From contig CAIIXF020000012.1 in assembly GCA_903813345.2 (NCBI GenBank), positions 18,297,520 through 18,361,519 on the forward strand: a stretch of DNA of 64,000 nucleotides, in the 5' to 3' direction. Shown one piece after another: positions 16,599 to 63,631 of the stretch. The DNA is from Owenia fusiformis (taxonomy: Eukaryota > Annelida > Polychaeta > Sabellida > Oweniidae). The notes beneath the pieces were generated by a model. It was not told the DNA's origin. It did not search any database and worked only from the letters and a program-made list of their open reading frames with translations. The stretch's first letter is position 1; each line of letters starts with the position of its first letter. The position numbers and the translations under genes were made by a program.

Positions 16599-16825
16599 TC
16601 GACAGACAAACAGCGACTCATCGGAGTAGCAAACCTCACCAAATTATTATAAGCAAATCCTTTATTTTGTTAAATCATTCATAATTTTTCATAAGTTTTT
16701 TTTTATAGAAAATAGCAGACAGTGTATTGTCTCCTATTGGCGAGATCTGCACAAATGACGTAACTCGAGTAATTTCAAGATCCCTTTCTAAAAAACATTT
16801 GGAATGACAAAAACCAGAGACATAT

Positions 16826-17010: not shown

Positions 17011-17055
17011 TGTTGATGTGGTTATTGTGTGCCAAAACTGTTATCACAAATTATA

Positions 17056-18395: not shown

Positions 18396-21300
18396 ATGGC
18401 GTCTGACTGTATGCGAAGCAAACTTGTGAATAGGTATTGGGTGTATGGTAAGGATTACTACAAAGATGGTTTTATGCCTTACCCTCACTATCATCCCGCA
18501 GGATACTCCGATGAATGTAAACATCTTGAAATACGAAATGACGACATATTCTTCACTGGCTTTGTGAGAGCAGGTATGGGACATCGTTATTTAATATAAT
18601 TTATTTTTATTCCGATGACAAGAAATAGCAATATCTTAAAAATGACCAAAGGCCGCAAGAACTAAAAATTGCTGCCAAATAATAATCAGATCTCGAACTT
18701 GGTATAAATCTAACATCTGCAAAACTTTGAAGTAAGTGGAATTCCTGGAGTCGCCATTGCCAGGCAAAGTAAATGTAAGGTAAGGACACCTTATAAAACA
18801 CAAAAGGTAAGAGAGCTTTAAAGGATCTGACTGTACTATTGACGACGTTTGCAGGGACCCACATTGGTGTAGAGCTAATACAAAGTGTGCAGAACGTTGG
18901 CAACAAGGACTTCCTCAAGAAACACATCCACGACCGTGTGGAAATGGTTCACATATCTAAAGATGGTAAGTAAACGGTTATATTTTACGACATTAACGTG
19001 ACAAGCTGTCAACATTTGGTTACAATTAACGTGACAATACGTCACCATTTTTTGCAATTAACGTTACAAGATGTCATCATTTGATTACAATTTACGTGAC
19101 AAGACGTCACCATTTGGTTGCAATTAACGTGAGAAGCTGTCAACATTTAGCTGCAATTAACGTGACAAGGTGTCAACATTTGGTCGCAATTAACGTGACA
19201 ATATGTCACTATTTGATTGAAATAAACGTGGCAAGATGTCACCATTCGGTTGCAATTACTGTGACAAGATGTCACCATTTGGTTGCAATTAACGTTACAA
19301 GATGTCACCATTTGGTTGCAATTGACGTGGCAGGATGTCACCGTTTGGTTGCAAATGACGTGGCAAGATGTCACCGTTTGGTTGCAATTAACGTGACAAG
19401 TTGTCATCATTTGGTTGCAATTAACGTGACCAGGTGTCATTATTTACTGGAAATTGACGTGGCAAGCTGTCACCGTTTGGTTGCAATTAACTTGACAAGT
19501 TGTCCCACTTTGGTTGCAATTAACAGACTAACATGGCAAGTTGTCACAGTTTAGTTGCAATTAACGTGGCAAGATGTCAACGTTCGATTGCAATCAACGT
19601 GACAAGTTGTCAACATTTGGTTGCAATCGACATGGCAAGATGTCACCGTTTGGTTGCAATTGACTAAGCAAGATTTCACCATTCGGTGTCAATTAACGTG
19701 ACAAATTGTCATCGTTTGGTTGCAATTGACGTGGCAAGATGCCACCGTATGGTTGCAATGACGTGGCAACTGTTCGGTAGCAATTGACACGACAAGTTGT
19801 CACCGTTTGGTTGCAATTGATTTGGCAAGACGTCAACGTTTAGTTGCAATTAAAGTGACAAAATGTTACTATTTGGTTGCAATCGACGTGGCAAGATGTC
19901 ACCGTTTGGTTGCAATTGTTGTGGCAAGATGTCACCGTGCGGTTGCAATTAAAGTGATACGATGCCAATTTTTAGTTGCAATTGACGTGGCAAGATTTCA
20001 TCGTTCGATTGCAATTCAATCGACAAGATGTCACCATTTGGTTGCAATTGACATGGCAAGTTGTTACCGTTTGGTTCCAATTAATGTGACAAGTTGTCAC
20101 CGTTTGGTTGCAATTGACGTTGCAAGATGTCACCGTTTGCTTGCAATTAACATGACAAGATGTCACAGTTTGGTTGCAATTGGCGTGGCAAGATGTCATC
20201 GTTTGGTTGCAATGAATGTGACAAGATGTCACAGTTTGTTACAATTAACGTGACAAGATGTCACAATTTAATTGCAATTAACTTGACAAGATGTTATCAT
20301 ACAGTTGCAATTAACGTCACAATAATCGCTTGTTTATATACACGTTCGCTTATTTTAGCATAGTCATAAGATAAATGATTTTTTAGTAATGACAGGAAAG
20401 GTTTCCCTTTTGGAATATGGTGAAAATCCACTTCCAAGATTATCTGATCAGCCTTCACCTCGATTTCTATTCGGTCCACACCTACCCTATGAATTTTGCC
20501 CATTGGGTATACAGCAAGGAAATTGCAAGGTACATGTATTTATTCAATAATAATATAGTCGATAAATGCGTATGTTCACAATACTTTGTATAACATTCAC
20601 TGGGGATGAACTGGAAACGAGGGAGGTTTTGCCTAGAATCAAAATGGCCTCGAATGAAAAAGGAGCATTTGGCAAGAATTTTCTTTTAACAATTTTCTTG
20701 CTTTTATCTTTCAATTATACACAACTAAATATTTGGCAGGTATAAAATAATTCGTAAGTTCTGGTTTTAAATATGATTACAAATCAAATCCAGTCATAGC
20801 TGAGATAATTACGAATCAATTCTCGCTTGGGAAACGAGGCACATTTTCAATGATAAGAGGAAATGTTTAACTTGCGAAAAACTTTCCTCCTTTTCCGAGC
20901 GAGGGAATCGATTTGGAAATATCAAAGCAATGACTGCATTAATTTCTAAGGTGTCTGAAACCGTAACTTGATTTAGGGTTTGACGTGATACTTGGCAAAT
21001 CAATTAATTTTGAATAAGCTTTAAAATGATATATGACACATACAATGAAGACTCTGGTATATGTCTGCCTATGCGGGGGGCACACTTTCGGGACACCCTG
21101 TATGGTTTTCTATGAAAGCTTATATTGCATCATTCATGAAGAATGAATTAGGATCTACACGCATTGTGTCTAAAAGGGTTCCAAGCATAATGCGAAGAAT
21201 AAATAAATTACCCCCTCTATAATAGGGAAGAATAAATTCAAGATACCCGCAATAACCCCCAATAATTGTAATAAAAAATCTTATATTCAGGTGATTGTCG

Positions 21301-24031
21301 GATTTAGAAATCCCAAGTCTGTATATACAAGTTTCTTCCACGTAATTGATGGCATATCGAACACAGGGATGTTTTCTGAAAGGATTTCTAAAGAAGACTT
21401 CATGGCAGCCATCCTTACAGGGGACAGCAGAGATAGTAATAATTTGAAAGTTATATAAACCGGGGTGCAAAATGCGCGAATGAAATCAAGGGAAAAGCAT
21501 GTAGATTTAATTTTTTAAATATTTGAAAAATAAAATATTGCCGAGGAAAAAGCATAAATCCGGTCAAATCTCAGAGTAAGCCTTTTGATTAAAACAGAAT
21601 TTGAAAAAAACACAAATACATACAGCTGTTTAGGATATGTTTGATTAATTTTTTCATCTTTTCTAGTGCCCTGTTGCGGGTCGTGGTTTGACTTTTACAA
21701 GCAATGGTGGGAAAACAAAAATGAAAACATATATTTTCTCAACTATGAGAATCTAGTACAGGTCTGCAGATATATTTTTTTTATTAATATTAACAAACGC
21801 AGGTTATTATTATTTTTTGAAATGAAGCTTACCCTAGCTTTACTATCTCAAAAGCAATCGTATTTCTTCCTATGTGGTATGTACAGTATATGTATGTATA
21901 CTTTAAGTATGGTTTGCTTATGGTTTGCTTTCAACTCTTTTCTTTACATAGGATTGTCACAAAGTAGTGAAAGAAGTGGCCAACTTTCTCGGAAAAGCAT
22001 TAACTGATGAACAAGTGTCGGATATTGCTGACCATGTTAAATTTGACAAGATCAAAGAGAACCCAGCTTTTGGAAAAGCATTTGAAAAAATAAAAGATGT
22101 TAAGACTGCACATATGAGAAAGGGTAAAAGTAGAGATTTAGGATCCCGTGTTGCGTATCAAAGGAATTTTACACAAATCAGTCGTTTTGCATTTTCCGAA
22201 CGCAGGGTTCCAGACATCATCCACTAAGTTCCTTCCTTCTTCCAGAAGGAGGTACGAGTTCTGGAGGCCGGTGTTCGGAGGATGGTCGTTTTGAGAATTC
22301 TCGAGTTTAAATTGCCTATGTATCTAAACACTGGCTTATTGAACACGAATTTTACTTTCCCATGGAATCCACTGTGTCCAACCCAAACGCTCTTACATGC
22401 ATGACAGAGCGTTTCATTTACGCGGAAACGCATCGGAGCAAAATAAAATGGCGGCTAATGAAGATTCCACTATGACCGTCAGTACTGTTTCACTCGTTTC
22501 TCTTACATATCATACATGGTGACATATTATGTACCATTCGATGAACAATACCTTGAGCAAAGATCTTATATTTATTCAACTTCTGGTGGTAAATTTTTAT
22601 TTGCTTGATCAATGCTCCGTAGTGTAGATCGAACGAATCTGAAGTTGACGAATTGACCACAAATTACGAATTAAACTAGTATTTATATGAAAACGTCAAT
22701 CTTTCTGTTAAAGTAGTAGATCACAAACTCGTATATTCTCATTCCTAAAATCCCAGTTCAAATCCTAATTACTTGTTCTCAAGAAATCGCTTGTTTTCCT
22801 CGAAACGCTTCGTCGATGTAGGACACAATTTTAGAAACGCTCTTACCATTTTGTTTTGATATCATTTTCAGATCATAAGAGAAGAGTTTGGAATCGAATA
22901 TATCTCTCAAAAAGGTGTTGTACTTGTTAGGCAAATTGAAACGTCCGAACCTGCCTGGTGGTGCTAAACGTGCAACTAGCTGACTTAAGCCTACATTAGA
23001 TGATGCCATGCATACATGTGTGCTAAAACATAAAACTATTTAAAAAATGAAAAGTTTATATGTGAATTAATCTTTCTTCTTTTGATGCTAAGGGGTATAA
23101 TAGATCTTTTCTTTCTCTTCCTGAAAAGGAAAGTCAAGCTATGTATTTCCTTTAGAAACTGATCTAGACTACCGCAGCGTTTCCAGTTCACTGTGTTAAC
23201 CAGATCGGAGCGTTTCTTGAATATGAGAATGTCATCATTTTTAAGACTGGATTTTCGGTCATCAAATCACTATTACGATAATGTATGGTGCGTTGAAGCA
23301 TTGAAATTTGACCAAAATATTCGTTGGTGCTCTAATCTTGGCTCAACTAATCACATGTATTGACAAAAGGGGTTTTGACCGGTAGAATGACAAATACGTT
23401 TTTGAATTTTAATATCTATACTGCTTCGTACAGCTCTAAATCTAATCGCTTCAAACGTCAAAAGCCAGCCAAGTACAACATGAATATCATGCACCCATCG
23501 AATGGTATACTCGGAATAAGTAACTCATACCTGCTATTCCCATTATTGGGGAAATCGTCAGACGGCTCATCATTCCCGCCCGCCAGTTGTCCTACTCCGG
23601 AGCGTTTTTTTGTTTAGTTTCAGTAATGAAACGCTCCGTCGTGCATGTAGCGTTTGGGTTAGACACCGTGGAATCCAATGTAAAAATAGCTTTAACGTAA
23701 TCTATGGCTATGGTAATCTATGTGGAAATACTCATGGAGTTATTGATTTCTAATTTTCTATAAACATAATTAGTCTTATAAAATAATATTAAACGAGAGC
23801 TAATGGAATAAAATATATCATCAGAGAAATTATATTCAAGCAGATTTTGAAATTCACTGTTGAGAATCCACGAAGTTACATTTAAAGGGGTACATGTACA
23901 TGCACTTGTTATTTTTAGGCAAGATAGACGATTGGAAGAATTTCTTTACAGTGGCCCAGAGTGAACAATTTGATGAATTGTACGCTCAGAAAATGAAAGA
24001 CACGGACTTCCCCCAGCCGATTCATGAATAG
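18396..24031 (+). CDS. Cytosolic sulfotransferase, copy A (7 exons), altered PAPS loop
   Basis: Exons: 18396-18573, 18855-18965, 20387-20529, 21291-21435, 21667-21761, 21952-22123, 23919-24031. Together they make 957 nt, 318 aa, with GT-AG introns and compatible phases. The product belongs to the SULT family, which moves sulfate from PAPS to hydroxyl or amino groups of small molecules in the cytosol; the substrate is unknown. Family marks: the catalytic His in 'FGPHLP' (residue 128), 'RNPKSVYTS' with the Arg and Ser of the 3'-phosphate site (150-158), 'GSWFD', and the C-terminal '[13 protein letters not shown]' (280-292). Odd: the 5'-phosphosulfate loop reads FVRAGT, where copy B and the family have a proline and a serine (FPRSGT in B), so activity may be lost or changed. 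Start chosen at the first ATG before the conserved region. The exon 4 donor (A|GTAATA) was inferred from reading phase. Confidence 0.85.
18990..20325 (+). repeat. 33-bp minisatellite in sulfotransferase A intron 2
   Basis: About 40 diverged units of 33 bp, of the form TTGGTTGCAATTAACGTGAC plus AAGATGTCACCAT. Each unit carries the small palindrome GTGACA-AGA-TGTCAC or a variant. The array fills nearly the whole intron between exons 2 and 3. The period is a multiple of three, so it yields open frames on both strands ('[11 protein letters not shown]' repeats) that are not genes. The matching array in copy B is longer and split by a transposon. Confidence 0.9.
22189..22284. mobile_element. 96-bp MITE with 8-bp target duplication, copy A only
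   Basis: The element is flanked by GTCGTTTT at 22181-22188 and 22285-22292. Copy B has a single GTCGTTTT at the matching place (about 50210). Terminal inverted repeats are imperfect: CATTTTCCGAACGCAGG on the left and CATCCTCCGAACACCGG read from the right. An 8-bp duplication fits the hAT superfamily. It lies in intron 6 of sulfotransferase A. Confidence 0.75.
22372..23668. mobile_element. 1297-bp TIR element with 9-bp target duplication, copy A only
   Basis: TGGAATCCA occurs at 22363-22371 and 23669-23677 around the insertion. Copy B has it once, uninterrupted (about 50294). The inverted ends share CTGTGTCCAACCCAAACGCT (left) with CGGTGTCTAACCCAAACGCT (read from the right), and both continue to GAGCGTTTCATT. 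A 9-bp duplication fits Mutator-like elements; 8-9 bp would also allow hAT. Two short open frames inside (22779-23009 minus, 23360-23617 plus) are not recognised and no transposase domain is seen, so it is probably non-autonomous. Confidence 0.75.
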
Positions 24032-25685
24032 TGTTCAAAGTATGGGACTATGGCAGTAATCTACAATACTAATATGAACTGTTAGCAGTACGTAACTTCC
24101 TTCGACCTGTCTATGAATAATCAGCAACCAGAGAATGAGAGATAGAATGGGGTTCACCTTCACCATAAAACGTGTAAACAATTTATTTATAAATAGTGTG
24201 CTAAGTTCGATACAATGACAGCCATCCAGAAAACTAATATGAACTACTTCCTTCAATCTCTCCTGAATCTTTCTGTAAATGATGTGCAGAATATGACTAT
24301 GTGATTCTAATCTTTCAACCTATCTTTGAATAAACAGAAAACTCAGAATTAAAGAAAGTGCCTTCCCATTTTCATAAAATAGATTCTCAAATGGAAAAGT
24401 ATTGTCTACCTTTGGTAGACAATACTTACAAAATTATTGATTTTGATTTGTAGTCTCGAACTTTGAGAAACTTAGATAGCACAGTTTGTGACCTAGTTTG
24501 AGCACTTTTGACCTTGAACAATACTGTTTCATCAACATTATCAATATCACTCAATTGTACTTCACTAGTCACTAAAGCTGATAATAAAAAAGGTTTACAT
24601 AAATACACTGTAAGAGATGGACAACTCCTTACCACTGACTGTACATGTTTCATCATTGATACAACAAGGCATTAACATGACAAAATGTGACCATATAGTG
24701 GAAGCTTTAACAAATTGTTACCAACGAAAAACAACCACCGAATACCATCCACAAAAAAGTTGGTAACCATAACAATATGTCATCACTTCTAGTGGTGACA
24801 TAGAATGTATATACTTGAATATTGAAAGTGCATCAGGTACCTAATCTACAGCTGCCATAGGAACCAAATATTAAACACAGATTAGTCATAAAGTTCGATC
24901 CTTCAAATATTTCTTGGAAGCCTATTTTCTATATTTCCGGATGAGTCAAAAAAATTTTTTAAGATAAAGGGTTACAAGTAGAATTTACTGACCATCTAAA
25001 ATTAATAAAAGTTTCTTCAACTTTCTAAACAAACATTGTTGCATCAATATAGTGTACATATATGGGTAATAGATCCTGATAGACATGCCTTCCCTGACTG
25101 ATTATTATGTTATCAAAGGGGGGGGGGGGGTCGGATCCCTCCCCCTGGCTAGAAATCCTTTCAAAATCATGCAGTTTTTCAACATTCTGAGCACTGTCTG
25201 CATGATTTTTTTTGCCAAAAACAGTCAACAAGGCACAGGACGTGAACGAGATCACACCATCAAATAGGCCGCCAGAAAACAAGATGGCCGCCCAAAAGTT
25301 AATCAGTTCTAGTACTTGATATCCTCTATCATTTGTGTAAATTTGAAGGAAATCCAATGAGCGGTTTTCCTGAAATGGCGATGACAAGAAAAACCTTCAA
25401 AATGGCCGCCAGAAAACAAGATGGCCACCCAAAAGTTAATCAGCTCTAGTACTTCATATGCTCTATCATCTCTGCGAATTTGGAGAAAATCTGATGAGCA
25501 GTTTTCCTTAAACGGCGATGACAAAAAGCGGGACGATCACGACCACGACCAGTATGACGACTATATCCCACCGATGGTGGGATAAAAAGTTCCCCCCTTG
25601 GCAAAAGCTTCCCCTTGGTAAAACCACTCCCCCTAGGTAAATCCTGGCTACGGGCCTGTTTATATATACAGATTATATATATATA
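24032..25685. other. Sulfotransferase A 3' flank, no gene; repeat debris
   Basis: Aligns with B 50650-51790. A possible AATAAA lies at 24329-24334 (changed in B). A short dispersed repeat is at about 24715-24800. At about 25265-25530 a block of about 130 bp with 'ATGGCCGCC' motifs is present twice in tandem. The stretch ends in CTGGCTACGGGCCTG (about 25645), the inverted partner of CAGGCACCTGTAGCCGG in B (about 51619), so remnants of an older TIR element seem to be shared by both copies. Confidence 0.5.
24397..24427. repeat. 31-bp perfect palindrome, copy A only
   Basis: AAGTATTGTCTACC, then TTT, then its exact reverse complement. Copy B has only the left arm (about 51013-51026) and diverges after it, so the right arm was gained in A or lost in B. 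Confidence 0.6.
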
Positions 25686-26818
25686 CAGGGTGGGCCAAAA
25701 AAAAACCAATACCCAACTTTAAATTAGAATGAAAATAGCTATGTTCAATATGATACATTGATTTATATATCATTTTAAAGGTAATTCATTTTCGAACAAT
25801 TTGGTATATAACACTATGTCATGAAATCAATATTGAAGTTTTATTATGCTTATTTGGGAGACCGGGTCGGTATTTGAGGTATCCAGATTTTAGGGAGAAA
25901 ATAGTAAATCTGCGGAATACTGTTACTTTTTTATTTATAGAACATCATTTTGTTAGGTGAGTACATGCTTGTATATTTGCATATTGTGTGACTAAACTTA
26001 TTGTTAATGAATTTCAGTGTTGTTTATTATCAATAAGTACTCAAAGGGGGTATGTTAAAAGACATTAAACGTATATGTGACGAGGATATTATTTTCCATC
26101 AAGACATTGCCTCGTACCATAGATCAAAGGAGACATTGGCATTTCTTTGCAAACAAGGTGTCAATTTGATTGATCTCGATGCTTGGCCACCCAACAGCCC
26201 CGATGCTAATGTGTTTGATTACCGTACATGGAGCCATCTCGCGGAAATGGTACAATCAAAACCATCCAATAAACAGCATTGATGAGCTGAAACAGAATCC
26301 TAAAGTACTGAAATGAATTGTAACAGAAATCTCTCAATAAGGCTACTGATAGATTGCGCTACCGCTTGAAGCTTATTGTTGATGCAGAGGGGAGGGGGTG
26401 GGGTATATTGAGCAATTGTTAAAATTGTTTAAATAAATGAAGTGTAAAATGTTATTAAACAACACTGAAATTCATAAACAATAAATTTAGTCACACAATG
26501 ATGCAAATATCAATATCCAAGCAATGCTTGGCAAGCATGTATTCACCTAAAAAAAGAATGATACTCTATAAATAAAAAATTAACATAATTCCGCAGATTT
26601 ACTATTTTCTCCCTTAAATCTGGAGACCTTAAATAGCAACCCGGCCTCCCAAAGAAGTATAATAAAACTTTACTATTGATTTCATGACATAGTGTTATAT
26701 ACCAAATTGTTTGAAATTGTATAACCTTTAAAATGATATGTAAGTCAATGTGCCATATTGAATGTAACTATTTTTATTCAGATTTGAAGTTGGGTATTGG
26801 TTTTTTTGGCCCACCCTG
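25686..26818 (+). mobile_element. Tc1/mariner-type transposon with very long inverted repeats
   Basis: Ends CAGGGTGGGCCAAAAAAAAA and, read from the right, CAGGGTGGGCCAAAAAAACC, flanked by TA. The inverted repeats extend inward about 350-370 bp with moderate divergence (left about 25686-26050, right about 26420-26818). A transposase remnant at 26052-26282 (76 aa) shows the Tc1/mariner pattern: 'FHQDIASYH' with the second catalytic Asp, then 'WPPNSPDANVFDY' with the third. The first Asp and the DNA-binding domain are missing, so it is a dead copy. No counterpart is seen in segment B. Confidence 0.8.
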
Positions 26819-27882
26819 TAGATTATTCCTCATTGTAACAGTGAGAGTCAGTCTGTTTCTATAAAACAGAAACATAACATACTGTACAACATGTTGATCT
26901 GTCAAAATCAACTCTCAATTGAGAATCCAAATTCAAATGATCAAACTATGTAATGATTTCAAATTCAAATAAGTCTTTAATTACGTTCATATTCAAATGA
27001 GTGAGGTACATACAAAGTACAATGTTTCATATTACAAGAATAAAAATACATATTGAATTTATATGACAGTATGAAAGACAAGCGGCCTACCTAATAACAG
27101 TGCACTAATAACATTACTGTAATTATAAAGTGAAGATTCACATATTCATAGTCTAATGATTCTAAAGATGAAACGGCGCTTTCTAAAATAAGAGTTATAT
27201 ATGATGATGAAACTAAAAGTGTAGTGTTTGATGGCTTATAAATACACTTGTTTTAAAATTGCAAAATAAACGCATGCAAAAACATATATACGTTTAAAAT
27301 CAAGCCATTCATTCTAGCACTGATTGCATGTAACAACAGACTCTAGTACATGTATTGATCCTAAGAGGCAAACTGAACTAACAATAGACTTTACAATAAT
27401 AATATAACAATAGATTCTATAATAACAATACATTTGCAGATATGGTCTTAATAATCTCAAATGAAAAAGCTGGGCCAAGGCAGGATTTTCTGACAACATA
27501 GTCTAATAAGAGGCGATATAATGGAACTATAATATTGCAAATATCTGCCATACTATTAAAAGTTGCACCTCAATAAGTTGATAAAAAAGATTATGAGGAC
27601 TTCAAAGACTTAAAAGGTGAAAGATAATAAACATTACAAAAATATAAAAATGGGAATATTGCATTCCATATTTCATAATTTCCATAATTTAGTACTTCAG
27701 TGATAGCGGGATAGATAAAGAAATGTCTATCCTGACCCGAGATACATTCTACATTCCTCTATGATTATGTAGAAAGAAACACAGTAGGTTTTGGATACAA
27801 AATGTAGTAGTTGGGATCTTTTCTCTGTGTACTGTAGTCTCGATGTTTCAGAAAATAAATATTATACTAAAATGTTTTTTCC
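26819..27882. other. Non-coding flank 3' of the ABCB last exon (copy A)
   Basis: Aligns closely with B 51790-52851 without a conserved reading frame. Since the ABCB exons are on the minus strand, this is probably their 3' UTR and downstream DNA. Nothing else is seen. Confidence 0.45.
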
Positions 27883-28173
27883 TCACAGCTTGGTATTTGA
27901 ATTTGCCATAGAATGATCAACATCCCCATTGCTTAAGTTCATAACAGGGCGGTCATTCCCATCGGAAAGAGCACTTTTAACATCAAGTATTAACTCATCA
28001 CTGTTTGTTTTACTGTCATCATTGCCGTTTCCAAGTTCATTTTCAAACATTTTGGCAGTGGCTTCACCTGCAATCAACTGTCGTAGAACAAGCTTTTTGT
28101 AAATGCCACCTTTCTGAAGTAGGTCACTATGGGTTCCTTGTTCAGCTATTTTGCCCTGGTCTATCACAATAAC
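27883..28173 (-). pseudogene. Orphan last exon of the ABCB half transporter (copy A)
   Basis: 96 codons plus stop. It opens with '[15 protein letters not shown]', the end of an ABC nucleotide-binding domain after the H-loop, and ends in a polar tail. It is nearly identical to the last exon in copy B (52852-53139), with one extra codon and a few substitutions. The acceptor AG is intact. Homology with B stops at about 28325, and the sequence then jumps to DNA matching B from about 61857. The other nine exons known in B are therefore absent, which makes this a gene relic even though its frame is still open. Confidence 0.8.
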
Positions 28174-28517
28174 CTGGAATTGCAAGAAATTGAGATTTCT
28201 TGAAAAGCTACATACTTGTACAGTAAAACCTGTTCGATGGAACATCTTTCTGTAATAAACACCTGTCTACAAGGAACAGTTTTTAAAAGAACCAAATATT
28301 TTTCCATTGACCTCCATGTTATTTTTGGGGGTTTTGTTTTAATTTTTGGATACTTTTTGTTAAATCAAGCAAAATTTTCAATTCAATTTCAATTCAATTC
28401 AATTTATTTATTTCATAATTCTTATATAATATACACTATAAAAACGAGCCGCTAGACACCCTAGTGGGTATATGTTGCGGTTTTTCCTTTGTTTTACTAG
28501 AATATTGAGAGGTCTTG

Positions 28518-29286: not shown

Positions 29287-31697
29287 ATGAAGTTACCAAC
29301 AGTGCTACTGCTGTGCTGTTTCATGTTTGTAGCATCAACAAATGCGTTGGAATATACTATAATAGGAGTTCTAAATTTATTTTCCTCACTTCCATCTCCA
29401 CTTTTCATTGGAGAATCTCTTAAAAATGAAACAATATTGAGTCAAATGACACCAAAATGCCGGCAAGATGTTGATATTTATAATGGGATCTTAGCAAGTG
29501 GAACTGCTGGTTTCTTTGTGCCCATTTTAACAAGTAAGATTCAATATTCCTGTTAATATGCTCAGTATTTACATGTATGATGAAACATACTAGAACGATC
29601 GAACCTGCTAAGTGGAACACCTCTGTAAGTGGAACACCTCCAAGTGGAACACTTTTTGTGGTCCCAAGGGTGTTTGATTTACACACATTCTTCTGCAGTT
29701 TGTTCTTGAACAATAATACTATTTCAATGAAAAACATTATATGCTATTTTTCGAGTAATTAAAAATTGTAACTTGTTAAACAAAAGTAACATTCTGTCTA
29801 TGTATTAAAGTACAAGGCATGTGCACAAAAGTAACATCCTGTTTACATTTAGGCATGTGCACAAAAGTAACAACCTGTTTACATTTAGGCACGTGCACAA
29901 AAGTAACAACCTGTTTACATTTAGGCATGTGCACAAAAGTAACAACCTGTTTACATTTAGGCACGTGCACAAAAGTAACATTCTATTTACATTTAGGCAC
30001 GTGCAAAAATGTTACATCCTGTTAAATTTTAGGAATGTGCACAAGAGTTACATCCTGTTTACATTAAGGCATGTGCACAAATGTAACATGTTGAAGTGCA
30101 TGGCATGTGCCCAAAATTGTTGGTGACTGAATATATTAAAGAAGCAAGAGAAGGTCTCAAAGCCCCAGAGGAACAATATTGCTTTGAATTTAAATAGTAC
30201 AGCCAGATCTGTAGTCACCTATGTAAAAGGATATGATTTAAATAATGTTTGGTTATTTTAATGTTCCAAGTGCTCGACTCAGATGGAAAGGAAAAGCCTG
30301 GATCATTTGGTGGAGCTATTAACTGGATAGGAGCATATGATCAGTGTAATGGGGTAGAGGTATACAATTTATGATATATTATCATTGTAAAGGGATACAA
30401 GTGTAGTGTATTTATTTATTTTAGTATTTACTTGATTCAAAACAGAACATTTTCCGAGGTAAACGTTGACATTTTTTCAGAGAACTTAATTGTATATTTT
30501 GAATTTTTATATTTAGGTTTTTCAAGTTTCAAAATGGCAGATCAGGTTGGGGATGCATGTCAAACATGATTCATGGATGCATTCAATTGCCACACCCAAT
30601 TTATCTTTTTGACCTCTTAAACATGTGAACCTCAAGGAGGTGAATAATTGATATTAAAAAAATTCTTGATTGAATTTAACTTAATCAAGCTCTGTTGTTT
30701 TTATTTTGTTTCTATTGAACTCTACATAGTGCAACATTTATAAGCATTATTTTGTTTGTTTTTCTTGTTTTAAGATGCTTGCTTAAATTGTAAATATAGA
30801 TACTTGGAAACAATCTTTTCTCATAGTATTCCAATGTTTCTCTGACATTCTTTTTTTGAATAAAAAATTCAAAATCTCAAACTTTTAAGCGGAATTATCA
30901 AAATGTTTGATAATACTGAATTTAAATTAGATTTGTTGGAACTTTTAAAACATAAGTATGACATTGAATGTTGACAGTAAAAAATGAGATAAATTCTATG
31001 CTCAACTTATTTTCATCCACATTATTACACAAACATATAAATTGTTATTACAGATGGAAACATATAAATTGTTATTACAGATGGATGCAGACATCCCAAT
31101 AGGACAGAATACTGTCAGGCTCAAGTTCAAGGGACAGTACATGTCTATCAGAATATGGGCGATTGATCCAGACAGGAACAATGCATATGTTAGTATATTA
31201 AGGCAGTTTTGCATGTTGAGAATAATTATGTAATTTTCACGATTTTTAATTATACCTGTAGATAATTAATAAAATTGGTATTTTTTTCAATCAGTTTATG
31301 TGAATAATTACATGTTATGGTGGTAGAATAAATTCTTCTCAGTCAAAATATTACAATCAGAATGTTGGTAGGACATTTTCCTGGTTATTTCTATTACTAT
31401 TGGGTCAAAGTGTGGAACTACCTTAAGATTCAACATTTGTAATTTCTGCAAGAGTATACAGACCTTTGAGTGTTTTTCACCAAATCATGAGTCTACAAAA
31501 AAACTAGAAAGTATTCTGATTCTCCACTATTTTATTCAGACACCATTTGACATTGGAGCATGCGTCCCTGACAGTTGTAGTGAAGATGACGTAAGGAGAT
31601 ACATGACATATGGGGAAAAGTCTGTTGTTCCAATGGAGGTTTACAATGGCAATCAATGGAATAATATATGGGCAGATAGTGGTGCTATAGCTATGAT
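29287..31697 (+). CDS. NRF-domain secreted/membrane protein, copy A (exons 1-4, 3' end lost)
   Basis: Exons: 29287-29533, 30271-30359, 31081-31188 (or from 31054), 31540-31697. About 200 residues can be read. The first 20 residues are a signal peptide (hydrophobic 'VLLLCCFMFVA' then 'STNA'). The NRF domain follows: 'KCRQDV' (58-63), 'GAINWIGAYDQCNGV' (about 97-111), 'FKGQYM' in exon 3, and 'IGACVPDSCSEDDV' (153-166). NRF-6-like proteins carry this Cys-rich N-terminal domain before a multi-pass acyltransferase-3 domain; members act in lipid handling and drug uptake in nematodes. Exon 4 ends in 'IWADSGAIAM', where the first membrane segment normally begins. No downstream exon is found. Instead the exon end is amplified 30 times and followed by a retroelement, so this copy may be broken or incomplete in the window. 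Confidence 0.8.
29815..30110 (+). repeat. 36-bp minisatellite in NRF A intron 1
   Basis: About eight units of roughly 36 bp, of the form GCATGTGCACAAAAGTAACA plus ACCTGTTTACATTTAG. The period is divisible by three and gives a spurious open frame. The matching intron in copy B has fewer units (about 63185-63350), so array length changed after duplication. Confidence 0.85.
31031..31080 (+). repeat. 27-bp tandem duplication of the NRF exon 3 acceptor
   Basis: ACATATAAATTGTTATTACAG occurs twice, its AG ending at 31053 and at 31080. Both AGs are followed by ATGGA. Use of the first would add nine in-frame residues ('METYKLLLQ') before the second; use of the second gives the usual junction. The motif looks like a duplicated polypyrimidine/acceptor unit. 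Confidence 0.75.
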
Positions 31698-33931
31698 GTA
31701 AGTACATGTTGGTGTAGAAAATGGCAAACAATGGAATAATATATGGGCAGATAGTGGCGCTATAGCTATGATGTAAGTACATGTAGGTGTAGAAATTGGC
31801 AAACAATGGAATGATATATGGGCAGATAGTGGCGCTATAGCTATGATGTAAGTATATGTAGGTGTAGAAAATGGCAAACAATGGAATGATATATGGGCAG
31901 ATAGTGGTGCTATAGCTATGATGTAAGTACATGTAGGTGTAGAAAATGGCAAGCAATGGAATAATATATGGGCAGATAGTGGTGCTATTGCTATGATGTA
32001 AGTACATGTAGGTGTAGAAAATGGCAAACAATGGAATAATATATGGGCAGATAGTGGTGCTATAGCTATGATGTAAGTATATGTAGGTGTAGGAAATGGC
32101 AAACAATGGAATGATATATGGGCAGATAGTGGTGCTATAGCTATGATGTAAGTACATGTTGGTGTAGAAAATGGCAAACAATGGAATAATATATGGGCAG
32201 ATAGTGGTGCTATAGCTATGATGTAAGTACATGTAGGTGTAGAAAATGGCAAACAATGGACTCATATATGGGCAGATAGTGGTGCTATAGCTATGATGTA
32301 AGTACATGTAGGTGTAGAAATTGGCAAACAATGGAATAATATATGGGCAGATAGTGGTGCTATAGCTATGATGTAAGTACATGTTGGTGTAGAAAATGGC
32401 AAACAATGGAATGATATATGGGCAGATAGTGGTGCTATAGCTATGATGTAAGTACATGTAGGTGTAGAAAATGGCAAACAATGGAATGATATATGGGCAG
32501 ATAGTGGTGCTATAGCTATGATGTAAGTACATGTAGGTGTAGAAAATGGCAAACAATGGAATGATATATGGGCAGATAGTGGTGCTATAGCTATGATGTA
32601 AGTACATGTTGGTGTAGAAAATGGCAAACAATGGAATAATATATGGGCAGATAATGGTGCTATAGCTATGATGTAAGTACATGTTGGTGTAGAAAATGGC
32701 AAACAATGGAATAATATATGGGCAGATAGTGGCGCTATAGCTATGATGTAAGTACATGTTGGTGTAGAAAATGGCAAACAATTGAATAATATATGGGCAG
32801 ATAGTGGCGCTATAGCTATGATGTAAGTACATGTAGGTGTAGAAAATGGCAAACAATGGAATAATATATGGGCAGATAGTGGTGCTATAGCTATGATGTA
32901 AGTACATGTTGGTGTAGAAAATGGCAAACAATGGACTCATATATGGGCAGATAGTGGTGCTATAGCTATGATGTAAGTACATGTAGGTGTAGTAAGGGCA
33001 AACAATGGACTCATATATGGGCAGATAGTGGTGCTATAGCTATGATGTAAGTACATGTAGGTGTAGAAAATGGCAAACAATGGAATAATATATGGGCAGA
33101 TAGTGGCGCTATAGCTATGATGTAAGTACATGTAGGTGTAGTAAGGGCAAACAATGGACTCATATATGGGCAGATAGTGGTGCTATAGCTATGATGTAAG
33201 TACATGTTGGCGTAGAAAATGGCAAGCAATGGAATAATATATGGGCAGATAGTGGTGCTATAGCTATGATGTAAGTACATGTAGGTGTAGAAAACCACAA
33301 ACAATGGACTCATATATGGGCAGATAGTGGCGCTATAGCTATGATGTAAGTACATGTTGGTGTAGAAAATGGCAAACAATGGAATGATATATGGGCAGAT
33401 AGTGGTGCTATAGCTATGATGTAAGTACATGTAGGTGTAGAAAATGGCAAACAATGGAATAATATATGGGCAGATAGTGGCGCTATAGCTATGATGTAAG
33501 TACATGTAGGTGTAGAAAATGGCAAACAATGGAATAATATATGGGCAGATAGTGGTGCTATAGCTATGATGTAAGTACATGTAGGTGTAGAAAACCACAA
33601 ACAATGGACTCATATATGGGCAGATAGTGGCGCTATAGCTATGATGTAAGTACATGTTGGTGTAGAAAATGGCAAACAATGGAATGATATATGGGCAGAT
33701 AGTGGTGCTATAGCTATGATGTAAGTACATGTTGGTGTAGAAAATGGCAAACAATGGGATAATATATGGGCAGATAGTGGTGCTATAGCTATGATGTAAG
33801 TACATGTAGGTGTAGAAAACCACAAACAATGGACTCATATATGGGCAGATAGTGGCGCTATAGCTATGATGTAAGTACATGTTGGTGTAGAAAATGGCAA
33901 ACAATGGAATGATATATGGGCAGATAGTGAT
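31645..33931 (+). repeat. 75-bp array: amplified NRF exon 4 end plus 5' splice site
   Basis: The unit is the last roughly 50 bp of exon 4 ('GNQWNNIWADSGAIAM') followed by GTAAGTACATG and about 14 bp of intron. The first donor is at 31698 and the last at 33871, a distance of 2173 bp or 29 intervals of 75 less 2 bp, giving 30 donors. Two units (around 32990 and 33145) are 1 bp shorter. Units differ at few positions (for example GTAGG or GTTGG, AATAAT, AATGAT or ACTCAT). In frame, each unit has TAA straight after the last codon, so use of any downstream donor would truncate the protein. The array stops inside a unit at 33931, where a retroelement begins. Confidence 0.95.
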
Positions 33932-36022
33932 TTGTGCAACTTCTCTAATAGTGCAATTATCACGTGATATCATATTTCTACACAATTTTTTGAGTGTCTG
34001 AGACTTTTCTGGTGGTAATTTTACAGTCATTTCGACAGAGTTCAAAATGAATCCAAGAAACGTTATTACCTGTGTAGGTTCTAGTGTCACCTTCTCAGGG
34101 TGGATTATGAAGCCAAGCTTTCGAAGCAATGTGATCGTGTCAAACAAATTCTGCTTGCATTGTTCATAGGTTTCTGCAAATAAACAGCAATCGTCAATGA
34201 ATGCTACTGACAAATGACCTTCATTTCGCAATTTAGCGTACACAGGCTTCATTATTTTAGTGAATATTCTAGGAGCGGAACTCAGCCCTTGAGCCAAACA
34301 TGTATACTGATACAATTGGCCTTTCCATTCAAATTGCAGAAATCTTTGAGAATCATAAGCAATGGGAACACTGTAATAAGCGTCCTTAGCGTCGACGCAG
34401 GACATGTACATATTTGGTAACAAAATGTCAATAGCATGCTGTAGATTCTCCATTTTGAAATGATGATATTCTACGTTTTTATTTAAATCAGATAAGTTGA
34501 GGATTTTTCTTTTTGATCCATCATGTTTGGGCGTAAGAAAGATAGGTGAAACATAACCTCTCTCTGAGTGATTAACCGGGATGATTATACCCTTCTTTAG
34601 AAATTTATTGATTTCTATATCCATGTTTTCGTTCTCAGATTTAGAGAATTTTGAATTTCGAGCCCATTGATTTTGTATAATATCATCATTACAAAATTCA
34701 ATTGTATAGCCATTAATTGCATTTAAGATTGATTTGTCTGACGTCAACAATTGCCATTCATGCATAAATTGTTTGAGACGACCACCTTGAAATTCTTTGA
34801 CTGAATTGTATAGAATTGATCTTACCTTTTCAGGCTCGGTGTCAATCTTGATAGGCTCTTCTACTGTGAAGCAGCTTGGTCCTGGGACGACTTGTTCTGG
34901 GACCACTTGCCTCTCTTGGCGCCATTTCCTTTGTAGGAATTCCGCTGACCGGTGTTTGACTTGTCGCCTTGCCATAAAAAATGGTTATTGGCTCCACGTC
35001 CACGACCACGGCCTTTATAGCCTCCATGGTAACCACGACCTCGGTTACTGAAAACGCCTCTCAGTTGGGTTTTATTCATCTCGGAAATTTCCTTGACTTG
35101 TTTCGAGATATCGTCTCCGAATAGCTACTGAGTGATTGGGACGGATTTTGCGCATAGGTGTTTAAAACCCTGGTTGATTTCGTTTTTGAACAATTCTCGT
35201 CTGCGCATATTCAACTTCAGGTTCGCATACGTGCAGAAAAGTATATTTTCATATACCATTTCGGCGATATTCCCCAGCACGTCGTCGTATTCATCAGTAT
35301 CTTTAGATAACGATTGTTTTAGGCCGTCCACTTTCTCAAGAGCACGTGACGAGGCAATTATGCCTTTCACCAGAGGTGATTGGACCTTCTGATATTTTAT
35401 ATCATTGGAGCGTACCTCAGACGTTACCCTTGCCCAAATAGGTTCGTTTACCTTGGTAGTGCATAATAAGGGTACATTCTCGGGAGTTTTGTGCTCCTCC
35501 ATTTTAGCGGTCATATCATCTTCGTCTGGCTTCGATTGCACAAGCTCCGTAACCATTTCGGCCATAAATTTATTTAACGGAGGGCCCATCTTGTAACTTG
35601 GCCTTATCATGGATTTTCTTCATGAAAGTGGACAGAGCATTAGCCTCGGAGTTTCCTTCATGTGTTTTACCAGAGGTTTCACACGAATCAACATCCATAG
35701 CATTATCAGACTGTTCATAATCCTCATCATAATCAATTTGATTGGAAATATCCCAGGAGAATTTCATATCCTGAATTGCTTCGGTCATGCTATCTTTAAT
35801 ATTTCCTAGACCGACAGTCAATGCTTGCGTGATGTCGTGGACTAATTTCACCGAGAGTCCAGAATCCTCATTTGATACACTTGGTGTATCTGTTACAGAA
35901 GACCTCTTAGAGGTGGTAGATTTACTAGTAGACTTTGATTTACTAGAACCAGAATCCATGGTTAGTGTAGTTGGCGTTTTCTTTCCCTGTTTGGGACTAG
36001 AAACTTGTGCTTCAGCCATCAT
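33931..36022 (-). mobile_element. Truncated DIRS-like retrotransposon (gag and RT)
   Basis: On the minus strand from 36022: a gag-like ORF, Ser/Thr/Lys-rich at the start, to 35570. A 1-nt frameshift near 35580-35600 moves the frame to the ORF 35610-35125 ('NKFMAEMVTELV'). An in-frame TAG at 35125-35127 is followed in the same frame by a Gly/Arg-rich tail to about 34861. An overlapping ORF from 34975 encodes the reverse transcriptase: 'YVSPIFLTPKHDGSKR' (141-156), 'VDAKDAYYSVPI' with the catalytic Asp (about 194-205), 'GLSSAPRIFTKI', and 'FIDD' (259-262). The style is that of DIRS/tyrosine-recombinase retroelements. The RT stops at about residue 348, where the 75-bp array begins. RNase H, methylase and recombinase are absent. 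The copy is dead, with a frameshift, a stop and a 3' truncation. Confidence 0.8.
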
Positions 36023-36590
36023 ATAAATTCCACGTGGTATAATTTAGCTTGCCACGTAGGTCTATTCAAATAACACACCTGAATAGAATTGACTCAATTA
36101 TGAGCTTTGCGTTGTAATTGGTTGACCAAATAGGCTTAGCACAGTATATACGCATTCAATATTGAATGCTTCACTGAACACACGTTACAAATTTAGAAAA
36201 TTCTCATAACGTACTAATGAATAAGGTTGTATCAATGTACATGTACACTAGTAAGTTGTAAACTTACTGAGGGAAATGGATTCCTAATATAAATATCCCT
36301 GCAATTTTGCAGTTAAGTTCAATTTTGAACTGATGTGAAATAATTATATTTCAAACATGAACATGTGAAGCTGCTTTGAGCCCACGTCTGTTCTCTTTGC
36401 GTGTCTGCAACACACTGATTACTTATTAGTCTGTTGCGTGCGCAATGCTTTCTCACGTGATCTCCTTGAATATGTAACATGGTAGAATCTTGCATAGCAA
36501 TAACGTTAAAATAAAATGTAGTCACAGGATTGTACATACTTATTGGCAAAGGAGTGTACCTACTTATTGGAATAGGATTGTACCTTCTTA
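36023..36590. other. Non-coding stretch between DIRS-like element and 24-bp array
   Basis: Probably the 5' leader or terminal repeat of the DIRS-like element followed by unique DNA. A terminal repeat could not be confirmed because the other end is missing. No gene seen. Confidence 0.4.
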
Positions 36591-39500
36591 TTGCCACAAT
36601 ATTTTACCTATTTAATGCAACAGGATTGCCAAAAGATTTACCTACGTATTGTCACAGGTTTGTACCTACTTATTGCCACTGGTATGTACCAACTTATTGC
36701 CACTGATTTGTACTTACTTATTGCCACTGGATTTGTACCCTCTTGCTGCCACAGGGTTGTACCTACTTACTGCCACATAATTGTACCTTATTCCTACCAC
36801 AGCCTGACAGGATTGAACCTACTTACTGCCTCATGGTTGTACCTTCTTACAGCCATAAGTGTACCTTCTATTTGCCACAAGATTGTACCTACTTATTGCC
36901 ACAGGATTGCACCTACATATTACCACAGGTTTGTACCTACTTACTGTCACAAGTTTGTACCTTGTTATTGCTACAAGATAGTACCTACTTATTTCCACAG
37001 GATTGTACCTACTTACTGCAACAGGTTTGTACCTTCTTACTGCCACAGGATTGTACCTATTTACTGCCACAGGTGTGTACCTACTTACTGCCACAGGATA
37101 GTACCTAATTATTGCCACAGGATTGTACCTACGTATGGCCACAGGATAGTACCTAATTATTGCCACGGGATTGTACCTACGTATAGCCACAGGATTGTAC
37201 CTACGTATAGCCACAGGATTGTACCTACGTATAGCCACAGGATTGTACCTACGTATAGCCACAGGATTGTACCTACGTATGGCCACAGGAAAGTACCTAA
37301 TTATTGCCACAGGATTGTATCTACGTATAGCCACAGGATTGTACCTACGTATAGCCACAGGATGGTTCCTACGTATAGCCACAGGATGGTACCTACGTAT
37401 AGCCACAGGATTGTACCTACGTATAGCCACATGATTGTACCTACGTATAGCCACAGGATGGTACCTACGTATAGCCACAGGATTGTACCTACGTATAGTC
37501 ACAGGATTGTACCTACGTATAGCCACAGGATTGTACCTACGCATAGCCACAGGATTCTACCTACGTATAGCCACAGGATTGTACCTACGTATAGCCACAG
37601 GATTCTACCTACGTATAGCCACAGGATTCTACCTACGTATAGCCACAGGATGGTACCTACGTATAGCCACAAGATTGTACCTACGTATAGCCACAGGATG
37701 GTACCTACGTATAGCCACAGGATTGTACCTACGTATAGCCACAGGATTGTACCTACGTATATCCACAGGATTGTACCTACGTATAGCCACAGGATGGTAC
37801 CTACGTATAGCCACAAGATTGTACCTACGTATAGCCACAGGATTGTACCTACGTATAGCCACAGGATTGTACCTACGTATAACCACAGGCTTGTACCTAC
37901 GTATAGCCACAGGATTGTACCTACGAATAGTCACAGGATTGAACCTACGTATAGCCACAGGATTGTACCTACGTATGGCCACAGGATAGTACCTAATTAT
38001 TGCCACAGGATTGTATCTACGTATAGCCACATGATTGTACCTACGTATAGCCACATGATTGTACCTACGTATAGCCACAGGATGGTACCTACGTATAGCC
38101 ACAGGATTGTACCTACGTATAGCCACAGGATTGTACCTACGTATAGCCACAGGATTGTACCTACGTATAGCCACAGGATTGTACCTACGTATAGCCACAG
38201 GATTGTACCTACGTATAGCCACAGGATGGTACCTACATATAGCCACAGGATTGTACGTACGTATAGCCACAGGATTGTACCTACGTATAGCCACAGGATT
38301 GTACCTACGTATAGCCACAGGATTGTACCTACGTATAGCCACAGGATTGTACCGACGTATAGCCACAGGATTGTACCTACGTATAGCCACAGGATGGTAC
38401 CTACGTATAGCCACAAGATTGTACCTACGTATAGCCACAGGATTGTACCTACGTATAGCCACAGGATTGTACCTACGTATAGCCACAGGATTGTACCTCC
38501 GTATAACCGCAGGATTGTACCTACGTATAGCCACAGGATTGTACCTACGAATAGTCACAGGATTGTACCTACGTATAGCGACAGGATTTTACCTACGTAT
38601 AGCCACATGATTGTACCTACGTATAGCCACAGCATTGTACCTACGTATAGCCACAGGATTGTACCTACGTATAGCCACAGGATTGCACCTACGTATAGCC
38701 ACAGGATTGTACCTATGTATAGTCACAGGATTGTACCTACGTATAGCCACAGGATTGTACCTACGTATAGCCACATGATTGTACCTACGTATAGCCACAG
38801 GAGTGTACCTACTTATTGCCACAGGATTGTACCTTCTCACTGCCACATGATTGTACCTACGTATAGCCACAGGATTGTACCTACGTATAGCCACAGGATT
38901 GTACCTACGTATAGCCACATGATTGTACCTATGTATAGCCACATGATTGTACCTACTTATTGCCACAGGATTGTACCTACTTACTGCCACAGGATTGTAC
39001 CTACTTACTGCCACAGGACTGTACCGACCTATTGCCACAGGATTGTACCTACTCATTGCCAATCCTGTAGGTAGAATCCTGTGGCAGTGAGTAGCTGCAA
39101 TCTTGTGGCAGTAAGTAGGTACAAGCCTGTGGCTATACGAAGGTACAACCCTGTGGCAATAATAAGGTAGTATCATGTGGCAGTACGTAGGTACAATACT
39201 GTGGCAGTGAGTAGATAAAATCCTTATTGCCACAGGCTTGTACCTACTTACTGCCACAAGATTGCAGCTACTGTGGCAATAAGGATTTTACCTACTCACT
39301 GCCACAGTATTGTACCTACTTACTGCCACAGGATAGTGCCTTATTATTGCCACAGGAGTGTACCTTCGTATAGCCACAGGATTGTACCTACGTAAAGCCA
39401 CAGGATTGAACCTACTTATTGCCACAGGATTGTACGTACTTACTGCCACAGGATTGACCCTACGTAAAGTCACAGGATTGTACCTACGTATAGCCACAAG

Positions 39501-39900
39501 ATTGTTACCTACTTATTGCCACAAGATTGTACCTACTTACTGCCATAGGTTTGAACCTACCTACTGCCGCAGGATTGTATCTACTAACTGCCACGGGATT
39601 GTTCCTACTTACTGCCACAGGATTGTAACTATGTACTGCCACAGGTTTGTGCTCTTATTGCTACAAGATTGTACCTACTTACTGACTGTCATAGGTTTTT
39701 ACCTTCAAATTGCCACAAGATTGTACCTACTTACTGCCATAGGTTTGTACCTACCTACTGCCATGGGATTGTATCTACTTACAGTCATAAGTGTACCTTC
39801 TAATTGCCACAAGATTTTACCTATTTATTGCCACATGATTGTACCTACGTATTGCCACAGGTTTGTACCTACTTACTTCCACGGGATCGTACCAACATAC
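36590..39900. repeat. 24-bp minisatellite, about 137 units, with an inverted block
   Basis: The core unit is ACAGGATTGTACCTACGTAT plus AGCC. Central units (about 37180-38900) are nearly uniform; the flanks (36590-37130 and 38940-39900) have the older-looking TACTTATTGCCACAGG or TACTTACTGCCACAGG variants. This is the usual pattern when arrays renew from the middle. Between about 39062 and 39226 the units run on the opposite strand. The period is 3x8, so long open frames appear on several frames and both strands (827, 309, 239 and 222 codons). They are repeat artefacts with no start or splice context. Confidence 0.95.
39176..39330. repeat. 60-bp near-perfect inverted repeat in the 24-bp array
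   Basis: Left arm 39176-39235 and right arm 39271-39330 are reverse complements with about two mismatches, around a 35-bp loop. The loop region (39230-39271) is itself the reverse complement of 39091-39132. The array therefore contains nested hairpins at the orientation switch. Confidence 0.85.
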
Positions 39901-40919: not shown

Positions 40920-40990
40920 TTTACCATCAGAGTTCATCGTCTGAAGTTCGGGTTTAGTTATTTTAACACTTGACACTCGACAGACAAACA
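40920..40990 (-). pseudogene. LINE 5' stub (copy B)
   Basis: Matches the start of the LINE frame in A (about 16542-16610) directly joined to the sequence left of the LINE in A. Both A breakpoints carry TTTACCA (14928-14934 and 16542-16548) and B has it once (40920-40926), so about 1614 bp were deleted. Confidence 0.8.
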
Positions 40991-41428
40991 GCGACTCATC
41001 GGAGTAACAAACCTCACCAAATTATTATAAGCAAATCCTTTATTTTGTTAAATCATTCATAATTTTTCATAAGTTTTTTATAGAAAATAGCAGACAGTGT
41101 ATTGTCTCCTATTGGCGAAATCTGCACAAATGACGTAACTCGAGTAATTTCAAGATCCCTTTCTAAAAAACATTTGGAATGACAAAAACCAGAGACATAT
41201 GAGAGTGCTCTAAGTCAACTTACTCTAGTCAATACTCAATTACTCTCCTAAGCCGATGCCGGCTGGTGTTTTTTAAAAAAGTATTTATTATATGTTATTG
41301 AAATGTGTTTTTTAAACCTCAGTCCTGTGACACAGAAATAAAATATTTTAAACTAAACTAAATTAAACTAAACTAAACTAAAATGTTGATGTGGTTATTG
41401 TGTGCCAAAACTGTTATCACAAACTATA

Positions 41429-42229
41429 CAGTGCGTCCAAAAATAGCAACAAACAAAAATATTGTAAATCACAAAACCAGTGATGATTACATCAATATCA
41501 TTTAGTTTACCACATGAAACCATGTGTATCCCCTATCCAATGGTATGTCATGTTTTATATCTGATCATGGACCACTGAAAATCATTGTATTTTCGTTCAT
41601 AGGTGAAAAGGCCTTTGTGCCAAGTTATGAAATATCAATCAAGTAATCCTAATCAGGTAAATCATCATGTAATTGGTCCTTGGGATTAAATTCATGTCAT
41701 AAGATTTACATAACACATGTTTCTGATTTAGATTTACTAAAAAAAGAAAAAGGAAAATAAAATTTAACCTTATGTGTTCATCAGTATCCTTGTTGGTTCA
41801 GTTACCGAAACATATGGAAAAAGAAGTGCCATAAACAGTCGTTGTCTGTCATCTTATGAAAGATTACATCCCTGTCCTTTCACACGACCACTACTGTATT
41901 TCTCTACACAGAGAGACTTGCTTGTGTCTACATGTCGCAGCCACACCTCTTTGAATCATATGGAGTTCTGGCGGAGAGCAGCAACCTCATTGGTGACTAG
42001 TACTCTTTGTTAACTGTTGCAATGTCTAAAACTAGGTCCAGAGCAGATTTTGGCCCGTTGTGCAAAAGGAATGATTATTCAGTGGTCTGTGGTCGTATAT
42101 GAATAATTAGCATGCCATTTCAAAGAGGGGATATGTGGCTTCCTGGAAAACTAAATGAAATTGATGTAATCATCACTGGTTTTGTGATTTTGCAATGTCT
42201 TTGTTTGTTGCGTTTTTTGGGACGCATTG
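41429..42229. mobile_element. Mariner-type MITE (copy B), TA target duplication
   Basis: The same insertion as 17056-17884, with TA on both sides, CAGTGCGTCC on the left and its partner on the right. It has small indels compared with A. No transposase. Confidence 0.8.
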
Positions 42230-62646: not shown

Positions 62647-63631
62647 ATGAAGTTACCAATAGTGCTACTGCTGTGCTGTTTCATATTTGTAGCATCAACA
62701 AATGCGTTGGAATATACCATATTAGGAGTAGCAAATTTATTTACTTCACTTCCATCTCCACTTTTCATTGGAGAATCTCTTAAAAATGAAACCATATTGA
62801 GTCAAATGACACCAAAATGCCGGCAAGATGTTGATATTTATAATGGGATCTTAGCAAGTGGAACTGCTGGTTTCTTTGTACCCATTTTAACAAGTAAGAT
62901 TCAATATTTCATCTACATTCCTGTTAATATGCTCAGTATTTACATGTATGATGAAACATACTAGAACGATCGAACCTGCTTAGTGGAACACCTCTGTAAG
63001 TGGAACACCTCCAAGTGGAACACTTTTTGTGGTCCCAAGGGTGTTTGATTTACACACATTCTTCTGCAGTTTGTTCTTGAACAATAATTATATTTCAATG
63101 AAAAACATTATATGCTATTTTTTGAGTAATTCAAAATTGTAACTTGTTAAACAAAAGTAACATTCTGTCTATGTATTAAAGTACAAGGCATGTACACAAA
63201 AGTAACATCCTGTCTATTTGTTGAAGTACTAGGCGTGTGCACAAAAGTAACAACCTGTTTACATTTAGGCACGTGCAAAAATGTTACATCCTGTTAAATT
63301 TTAGGAATGTGCACAAAAGTAACAACCTGGTTACATTAAGGCATGTGCACAAATGTAACATGTTGAAGTGCATGGCATGTGCCCAAAATTGTTGGTGACT
63401 GAATATATTAAAGAAGCAAGAGAAGGTCTCAAAGCCTCAGAGGAACAATATTGCTTTGAATTTAAATAGTACAGCCAGATCTGTAGTCACCTATGTAAAA
63501 GGATATGATTTAAATAATGTTTGGTTATTTTAATGTTCCAAGTGCTCGACTCAGATGGAAAGGAAAAGCCTGGATCATTTGGTGGAGCTATTAACTGGAT
63601 AGGAGCATATGATCAGTGTAATGGGGTAGAG
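62647..63631 (+). CDS. NRF-domain secreted/membrane protein, copy B (exons 1-2; continues past window)
   Basis: Exons: 62647-62893 and 63543-63631, same lengths and phases as in copy A. The protein starts with a signal peptide ('VLLLCCFIFVA', then 'STNA'), followed by 'KCRQDV' and the 'GAINWIGAYDQCNGV' motif of the NRF domain. Five residues differ from copy A in exon 1; exon 2 is identical in protein. Later exons lie beyond 64000, so it is not known whether this copy carries the duplicated acceptor or the 75-bp donor array. It lies on the opposite strand to ABCB. Confidence 0.8.
63185..63350 (+). repeat. 36-bp minisatellite in NRF B intron 1 (short allele)
   Basis: About four or five units of the same repeat as 29815-30110, fewer than in copy A. 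Confidence 0.75.

Follow-up and report, generated by a model that had tools for sequence, protein, structure and literature searches.

A 75-bp minisatellite carrying 30 splice donors across an exon–intron border in a truncated NRF/acyltransferase-3 gene copy of Owenia fusiformis

The minisatellite of the human gene 6-16 (IFI6/G1P3), reportedly described by Turri, Cuin and Porter in 1995, is said to have units that supply several splice donors. In IFI6 isoforms, two downstream repeat units are reported to be used as donors (PMC4526556). Lancelet genes contain related elements called mirages, which are minisatellite-like tandem repeats that lie over an exon–intron boundary, include splice signals, have reported units of 10 to 160 bp and vary in copy number between alleles or tissues (PMC3087553 and PMC3902484). 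The genes named are Adh3 and the globins BflGb6 and BflGb9 (PMC3087553), with TnC and PGBD5 added by PMC3902484. BflGb6 is presented there as having two haplotypes with 6 and 3 repeat units, and it is the acceptor side that is repeated. The present analysis concerns an array in the annelid Owenia fusiformis, in which exon 4 of an NRF/acyltransferase-3 gene has its end repeated together with the splice donor. Three matches above cut-off to the haemoglobin (erythrocruorin) linker family PF16915, which is not known outside annelids, point to an annelid host; COX1 gave no match, and nor did the GFP family PF01353, although that family matched in no control either and its lack is uninformative. The window analyzed is a 64,000-nucleotide stretch of assembly GCA_903813345.2 (contig CAIIXF020000012.1, here C12; C12:18297520-18361519), and positions without a prefix are counted from its first base. 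The array is probably an exon–intron-border minisatellite, or mirage, that grew passively with its donors as passengers, in gene copies that are now broken. An earlier note on this stretch had regarded growth across such a border as unusual, but the lancelet mirages (PMC3087553, PMC3902484) and the human 6-16/IFI6 minisatellite are reported precedents. Among the titles listed on repeated donors and border minisatellites, none dealt with this locus or with an annelid example.

Tandem Repeats Finder (TRF) returns the repeat as one array in the window (31645-33929; period 75, 30.5 copies, 94% matches). Together with the donor positions and the unit variants, this defines a plus-strand 75-bp minisatellite with 30 full donors and a partial unit. 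Each unit consists of 53 nt from the end of exon 4 and 22 nt from the start of intron 4, the predicted border being the hand-called exon end, which is backed by paralogs. Every donor in the array is preceded by a copy of the exon 4 end. The word GTAAGT occurs 30 times on the plus strand of the array, from 31698 to 33871; its density in the rest of the window (18 per 61,713 bp on the same strand) would predict 0.67 occurrences. The 29 steps between donors measure 75 bp in 27 cases and 74 bp in two, before donors 19 and 21, giving a first-to-last distance of 2173 bp, or 29x75-2. Both the tandem amplification of NRF exon 4 and its donor over the border, with 30 GTAAGT words, and the spacing of 29x75 less 2 had been claimed in the earlier note. 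The former is upheld by TRF, the donor positions and an ungapped paralog alignment, and the latter by the two 74-bp steps.

The reading frame also bears on how the donors could be used. Exon 4 of the array-bearing gene, copy A, reads TPFDIGACVPDSC...GAIAM-AT/gtaagt (31540-31697; the slash marks the border), or TPFDIGACVPDSCSEDD...NNIWADSGAIAM-AT/gtaagt, and its frame runs into a TAA within the first GTAAGT. Because 75 bp is a multiple of three (25 codons), TAA is in frame again in the first, translated units; further on, the 74-bp steps shift the frame. The use of any donor but the first would thus include the in-frame TAA of donor 1, and the earlier claim that such use leads to a stop stands.

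Copy A is a gene remnant whose putative exons, like all those given here, were hand-called from a paralog, copy C, by sequence comparison alone. Exon 1 (29287..29533) matches copy C exon 1 at 98.5% without gaps over 267 bp, including 10-bp flanks; within its hand-set edges it has a start codon and, by eye, a signal-like N-terminus. Exon 2 (30271..30359), exon 3 (31081..31188) and exon 4 (31540..31697), all on the plus strand like exon 1, match copy C without gaps at 92.7%, 95.3% and 97.1%. Exon 4, which ends in AT/GTAAGT and aligns gaplessly to exon 4 of two paralogs, is the last exon found. For exons 5-17 of copy A there was no blastn match in window positions 26000-61000 and no tblastn match at E<=0.01 in the whole window. 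A search of the 498-Mb assembly with exon 5 found no copy A exon, its matches being copies B and C and a distant paralog on C3. Of copy A, exons 1-4 alone were found in the window, and this copy does not show an NRF domain followed by Acyl_transf_3. As far as these searches reach, array A's donors thus lack a nearby acceptor exon belonging to the same gene.

When 300 bp of array A were searched against the same assembly, there were at least 16 matches, and all those listed are on C12, at three paralogous places: array A, a second array at 18362409-18363480 and a single unit at 18398106. The possibility of a dispersed satellite abutting the exon by chance was rejected, as all matches listed fall at these places. 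The three places are tandem paralogs, namely A, B and C. Across the 1680 bases of introns 1-3 that align between A and B there are 78 mismatches and 9 gap openings, against 301 mismatches over 1727 bases for A and C, and A and B are the closest pair among the three copies. Some 12 kb of sequence ahead of copy A (16542-28321) reappears in fragments ahead of copy B (40920-53291), with 85-93% identity; duplication thus probably took in the NRF copies together with the sequence upstream of them.

Copy C has 16 hand-spliced exons, labeled E1-E13 and E15-E17 with the label E14 unused, that are open throughout and encode 770 residues. The predicted protein contains an NRF domain (PF20146, E=1.2e-11, residues 80-169) and an Acyl_transf_3 domain (PF01757, E=4.1e-19, residues 347-741). 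Its intron 4 is 105 bp long, with the sole GTAAGT at its start. The C3 paralog, which shares 43-45% identity over three matched exons, has GTGAGT at the corresponding exon end, and the 901 bp read around it contain no GTAAGT and no tandem repeat. The single donor in copy C and the lack of an array in the C3 paralog, as far as read, indicate that the single-donor state is most likely ancestral.

Copy B begins on the plus strand near the end of the window, with exon 1 at 62647..62893 (95.5% ungapped to copy C) and exon 2 at 63543..63631 (matched to copy C). Its exons 3-17 and 14 donors lie beyond the window end, the donors running from 64943 to 65925 in window numbering (C12:18362462-18363444); of the 13 steps between them, 12 measure 75 bp and the other 82 bp. 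The paralogous arrays are therefore unequal, with 30 donors in A and 14 in B. Array B is bordered by native exon 4 on the left and by copy C-like intron sequence on the right, making intron 4 of B 1086 bp long. Thirteen of the 16 exons of copy B are gapless relative to C, and the gap in the exon 11 match sits at the donor. Exon 5 of copy B has gained 4 bp relative to C, with gaps of 4 and 2 bp; by hand reading, this gain creates an in-frame TGA about 17 residues in, within a hydrophobic stretch taken as the first membrane segment. Exon 12 has lost 4 bp, producing a frameshift. The first unit of B (C12:18362409-18362483) is the coding exon 4 end, and it carries G at unit positions 9 and 16 and C at 39, variants also seen in intronic units. 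These common variants suggest that array units may have exchanged sequence with the exon 4 end of B and so rewritten it.

On its right side, array A does not run out into native intron. It stops instead at about 33928, in the exonic part of a unit, against a truncated retroelement with a reverse-transcriptase open reading frame on the minus strand (33928..36043; RVT_1, E=2.5e-20; the outer end is taken from the list of open reading frames and is unmapped). This element, which we take to be DIRS-like, overlaps the array by 2 bp (TG) at its broken inner edge. Seven other genomic places match the retroelement at 99-100% from the junction point onward. In both other copies read (L014 and L015) the element continues beyond that point, which indicates that it is cut at the array A junction. 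Insertion of a whole retroelement at the array end was considered and rejected, because the element is cut within sequence that continues in those two copies. A deletion taking out exons 5-17 along with the array's right end and a portion of the element would account for this junction. Where the 3' half of copy A would be expected, between array A and the next duplicated segment, TRF and the duplication map place a 24-bp satellite (36526..39893, no strand assigned).

The most probable account is the passive growth of a border minisatellite through a series of events. By chance, the ancestor of A and B would have had the hexamer AATGGC twice, once in exon 4 and once in intron 4, some 70 bp further on. 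With these two hexamers as seeds, slippage or unequal exchange would have duplicated the intervening segment, including the donor and the 53 nt of exon 4 before it. Once formed, the array would have grown, diversified and entered both A and B through local duplication, carrying the donors as passengers. Later, copy A would have lost exons 5-17 and the right end of its array, creating the junction with the truncated retroelement, and copy B would have acquired its frameshifts in exons 5 and 12. The mechanism (slippage or unequal exchange), the order of these events and the productive use of the first donor while the gene worked are what we infer; the array, its listing at the three paralogs only, the seed repeat of copy C, the variants common to A and B and the damage to both are observed.

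The proposed seeds can be located in copy C, where AATGGC lies at -53 and +17 from the exon end, 70 bp apart, one on each side of the donor and matching the point where one 75-bp unit meets the next. The intron-to-exon joint is AATGGC in 23 of the 30 units of A and in 9 of 13 in B, the rest being variants such as AACCAC. Given seeds on both sides of the donor at the unit joint, the position of the array across the border would be accounted for by slippage or by unequal exchange of one hexamer with the other. The intronic part of the arrays is 5 bp longer than in copy C, which brings the unit to 75 bp. Arrays A and B also have variants in common (at unit positions, CCA at 3-5; C at 17, 19, 39 and 69; T at 66; G at 9 and 16), suggesting either that a diversified array predates the A/B split or that A and B exchanged units.

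Several points weigh against this account. Chance often yields a common hexamer when 60 nt of exon are compared with the same length of intron (72% of 5000 shuffles), so the seed argument draws its force from the coincidence with the unit joint and not from rarity. The introns of the arrays and of copy C differ by 5 bp near the joint, and the array copy number is taken from one assembly. Judged from C alone, the array may have been lost in C instead of gained in A/B; the C3 paralog, lacking GTAAGT and a tandem repeat in its 901 bp, favors gain. Finally, a low ratio of nonsynonymous to synonymous change (dN/dS) between A and B, along with absent exonic indels, suggests that the copies worked for some time after their split and are maybe not plain junk.

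In exons 1-4, dN/dS is 0.29 for A-B (9 synonymous and 10 nonsynonymous changes; Fisher P=0.009), 0.45 for A-C and 0.39 for B-C. For the downstream exons 6-10, 13 and 15-17, with exons 5, 11 and 12 dropped, B-C dN/dS is 0.25 (14 and 13 changes; P=0.0005). Between A and B there are 0 exonic indels in 602 bp versus 3.2 expected from the introns (1680 aligned bases), with P=0.04. Although the numbers are small, they hint at a period of constraint on array-bearing genes, in agreement with reports that lancelet mirages leave regular splicing undisturbed. The same figures do not demonstrate any action of the donor ladder itself.

Among the alternatives to passive growth, it is unlikely, but deserves consideration, that the array harmed its hosts: alternative donors would have introduced stops and mRNA decay, and the genes would have lost their role and then degenerated. 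Both array-bearing copies are indeed broken while the single-donor copy C is open throughout, and splicing from any later donor would retain the in-frame TAA of donor 1. Three copies, however, are too few for a correlation, and the dN/dS values for A-B in exons 1-4 and for B-C in the downstream exons compared suggest function after the array arose. Lancelet mirages are also reported as not disturbing splicing (PMC3087553 and PMC3902484).

There is a small chance that the present product of A and B is a short, secreted protein with the NRF domain and that exons 1-4 have been kept for that purpose. Such a protein would end in A at the first-donor stop (...GAIAMM*) and in B some 17 residues after exon 5 begins. 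Both copies have open exons 1-4, the A-B dN/dS and lack of indels in these exons point to constraint, and A lacks the 3' half, which in B is shifted. In addition, an AATAAA lies at 34179 in A, 250 bp past the array. Yet a single AATAAA word is a poor guide to where a transcript would end, the numbers behind the constraint are small and the constraint may predate the breakage. A related and slightly more doubtful proposal is that the 14-30 identical donors, carried by working genes after the A/B duplication, act as a built-in switch by which the product changes from a membrane acyltransferase to a secreted short protein with the NRF domain, A and B having since become dedicated short-form genes. 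The short form would follow from the in-frame stop that each downstream donor brings. If true, this would also show mirages arising outside cephalochordates.

GTAAGT base-pairs with U1, and the earlier note had inferred a dense U1-binding ladder. As a working device, such a ladder would suppress premature polyadenylation through its many U1 sites, like an intronic telescripting shield, or tune splicing of the transcript. A device of this kind is very improbable. The word is kept in 30/30 donors of A and 14/14 of B, and the case for the ladder consists of this donor sequence. For comparison, 43 units were aligned (30 from A and 13 from B, the last B unit being left out for its differing length); they were located by the donor word, and their even spacing leaves no gap for lost donors. 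All six donor columns are invariant, but so are 52 of the 75 unit columns in total, and six columns named in advance would all be invariant with a probability of ~0.10. Across these 43 units, the donor hexamer is therefore not significantly more conserved than other columns, which does not demonstrate selection on it. Variable columns are more frequent in the intronic part (9/16 versus 14/53, P=0.036), a result that was not used because variants spread within arrays and units are not independent. The ladder was not borne out by the gene copies either: no exons 5-17 were found for A in the searches above, both array copies are damaged, and the open paralog C has a single donor and no array. An assembly error in the array length or the truncation is the least probable explanation, since the two arrays have their own variant order and their own flanks, although repeats are liable to collapse or expansion.

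The window holds other repeats as well. A unit of about 2.47 kb occurs in tandem at 1-8328, in three full copies and more, with 91-97% identity. TRF finds 33-bp tandem arrays at 18992-20322, 43305-43404 and 46851-48312, whose unit holds the near-palindrome GTGACAAGATGTCAC, and two minisatellites between copies A and B, at 53517-54290 (101-bp units) and 56521-57351 (29-bp units). A second reverse transcriptase open reading frame, presumably LINE-type, lies on the minus strand at 15069-16643 (RVT_1, E=5.2e-21).

Compared with NRF-6-like acyltransferase-3 proteins (PF20146 + PF01757), copy C is alike in having both domains, whereas copy A keeps only exons 1-4 and is without the acyltransferase part. 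Like IFI6, the Owenia locus has minisatellite units that provide several donors. Downstream donors are reported to be used in IFI6, whereas here each of them would add a stop. As in the lancelet mirages, the array A unit has exon and intron sequence over one border (53 + 22 nt) and the repeats include splice signals in all 30 units with donors in A and all 14 in B. The differences are that the host is an annelid and not a lancelet, that its gene copies are truncated or frameshifted, that the donor side is repeated and not, as in BflGb6, the acceptor side, and that the arrays have 30 and 14 donors, compared with 6 and 3 units in the two BflGb6 haplotypes. The unexpanded copy C, the medium array of B and the long array of A lie on one chromosome, which makes the birth of an exon-border minisatellite readable, seed repeat included. 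If B or a related intact allele is transcribed, the locus would be a natural test of spliceosome choice among many identical donors. Array A has the anatomy of a mirage with more units and is a longer case of a known kind, in an annelid, which suggests that mirages are not confined to lancelets.

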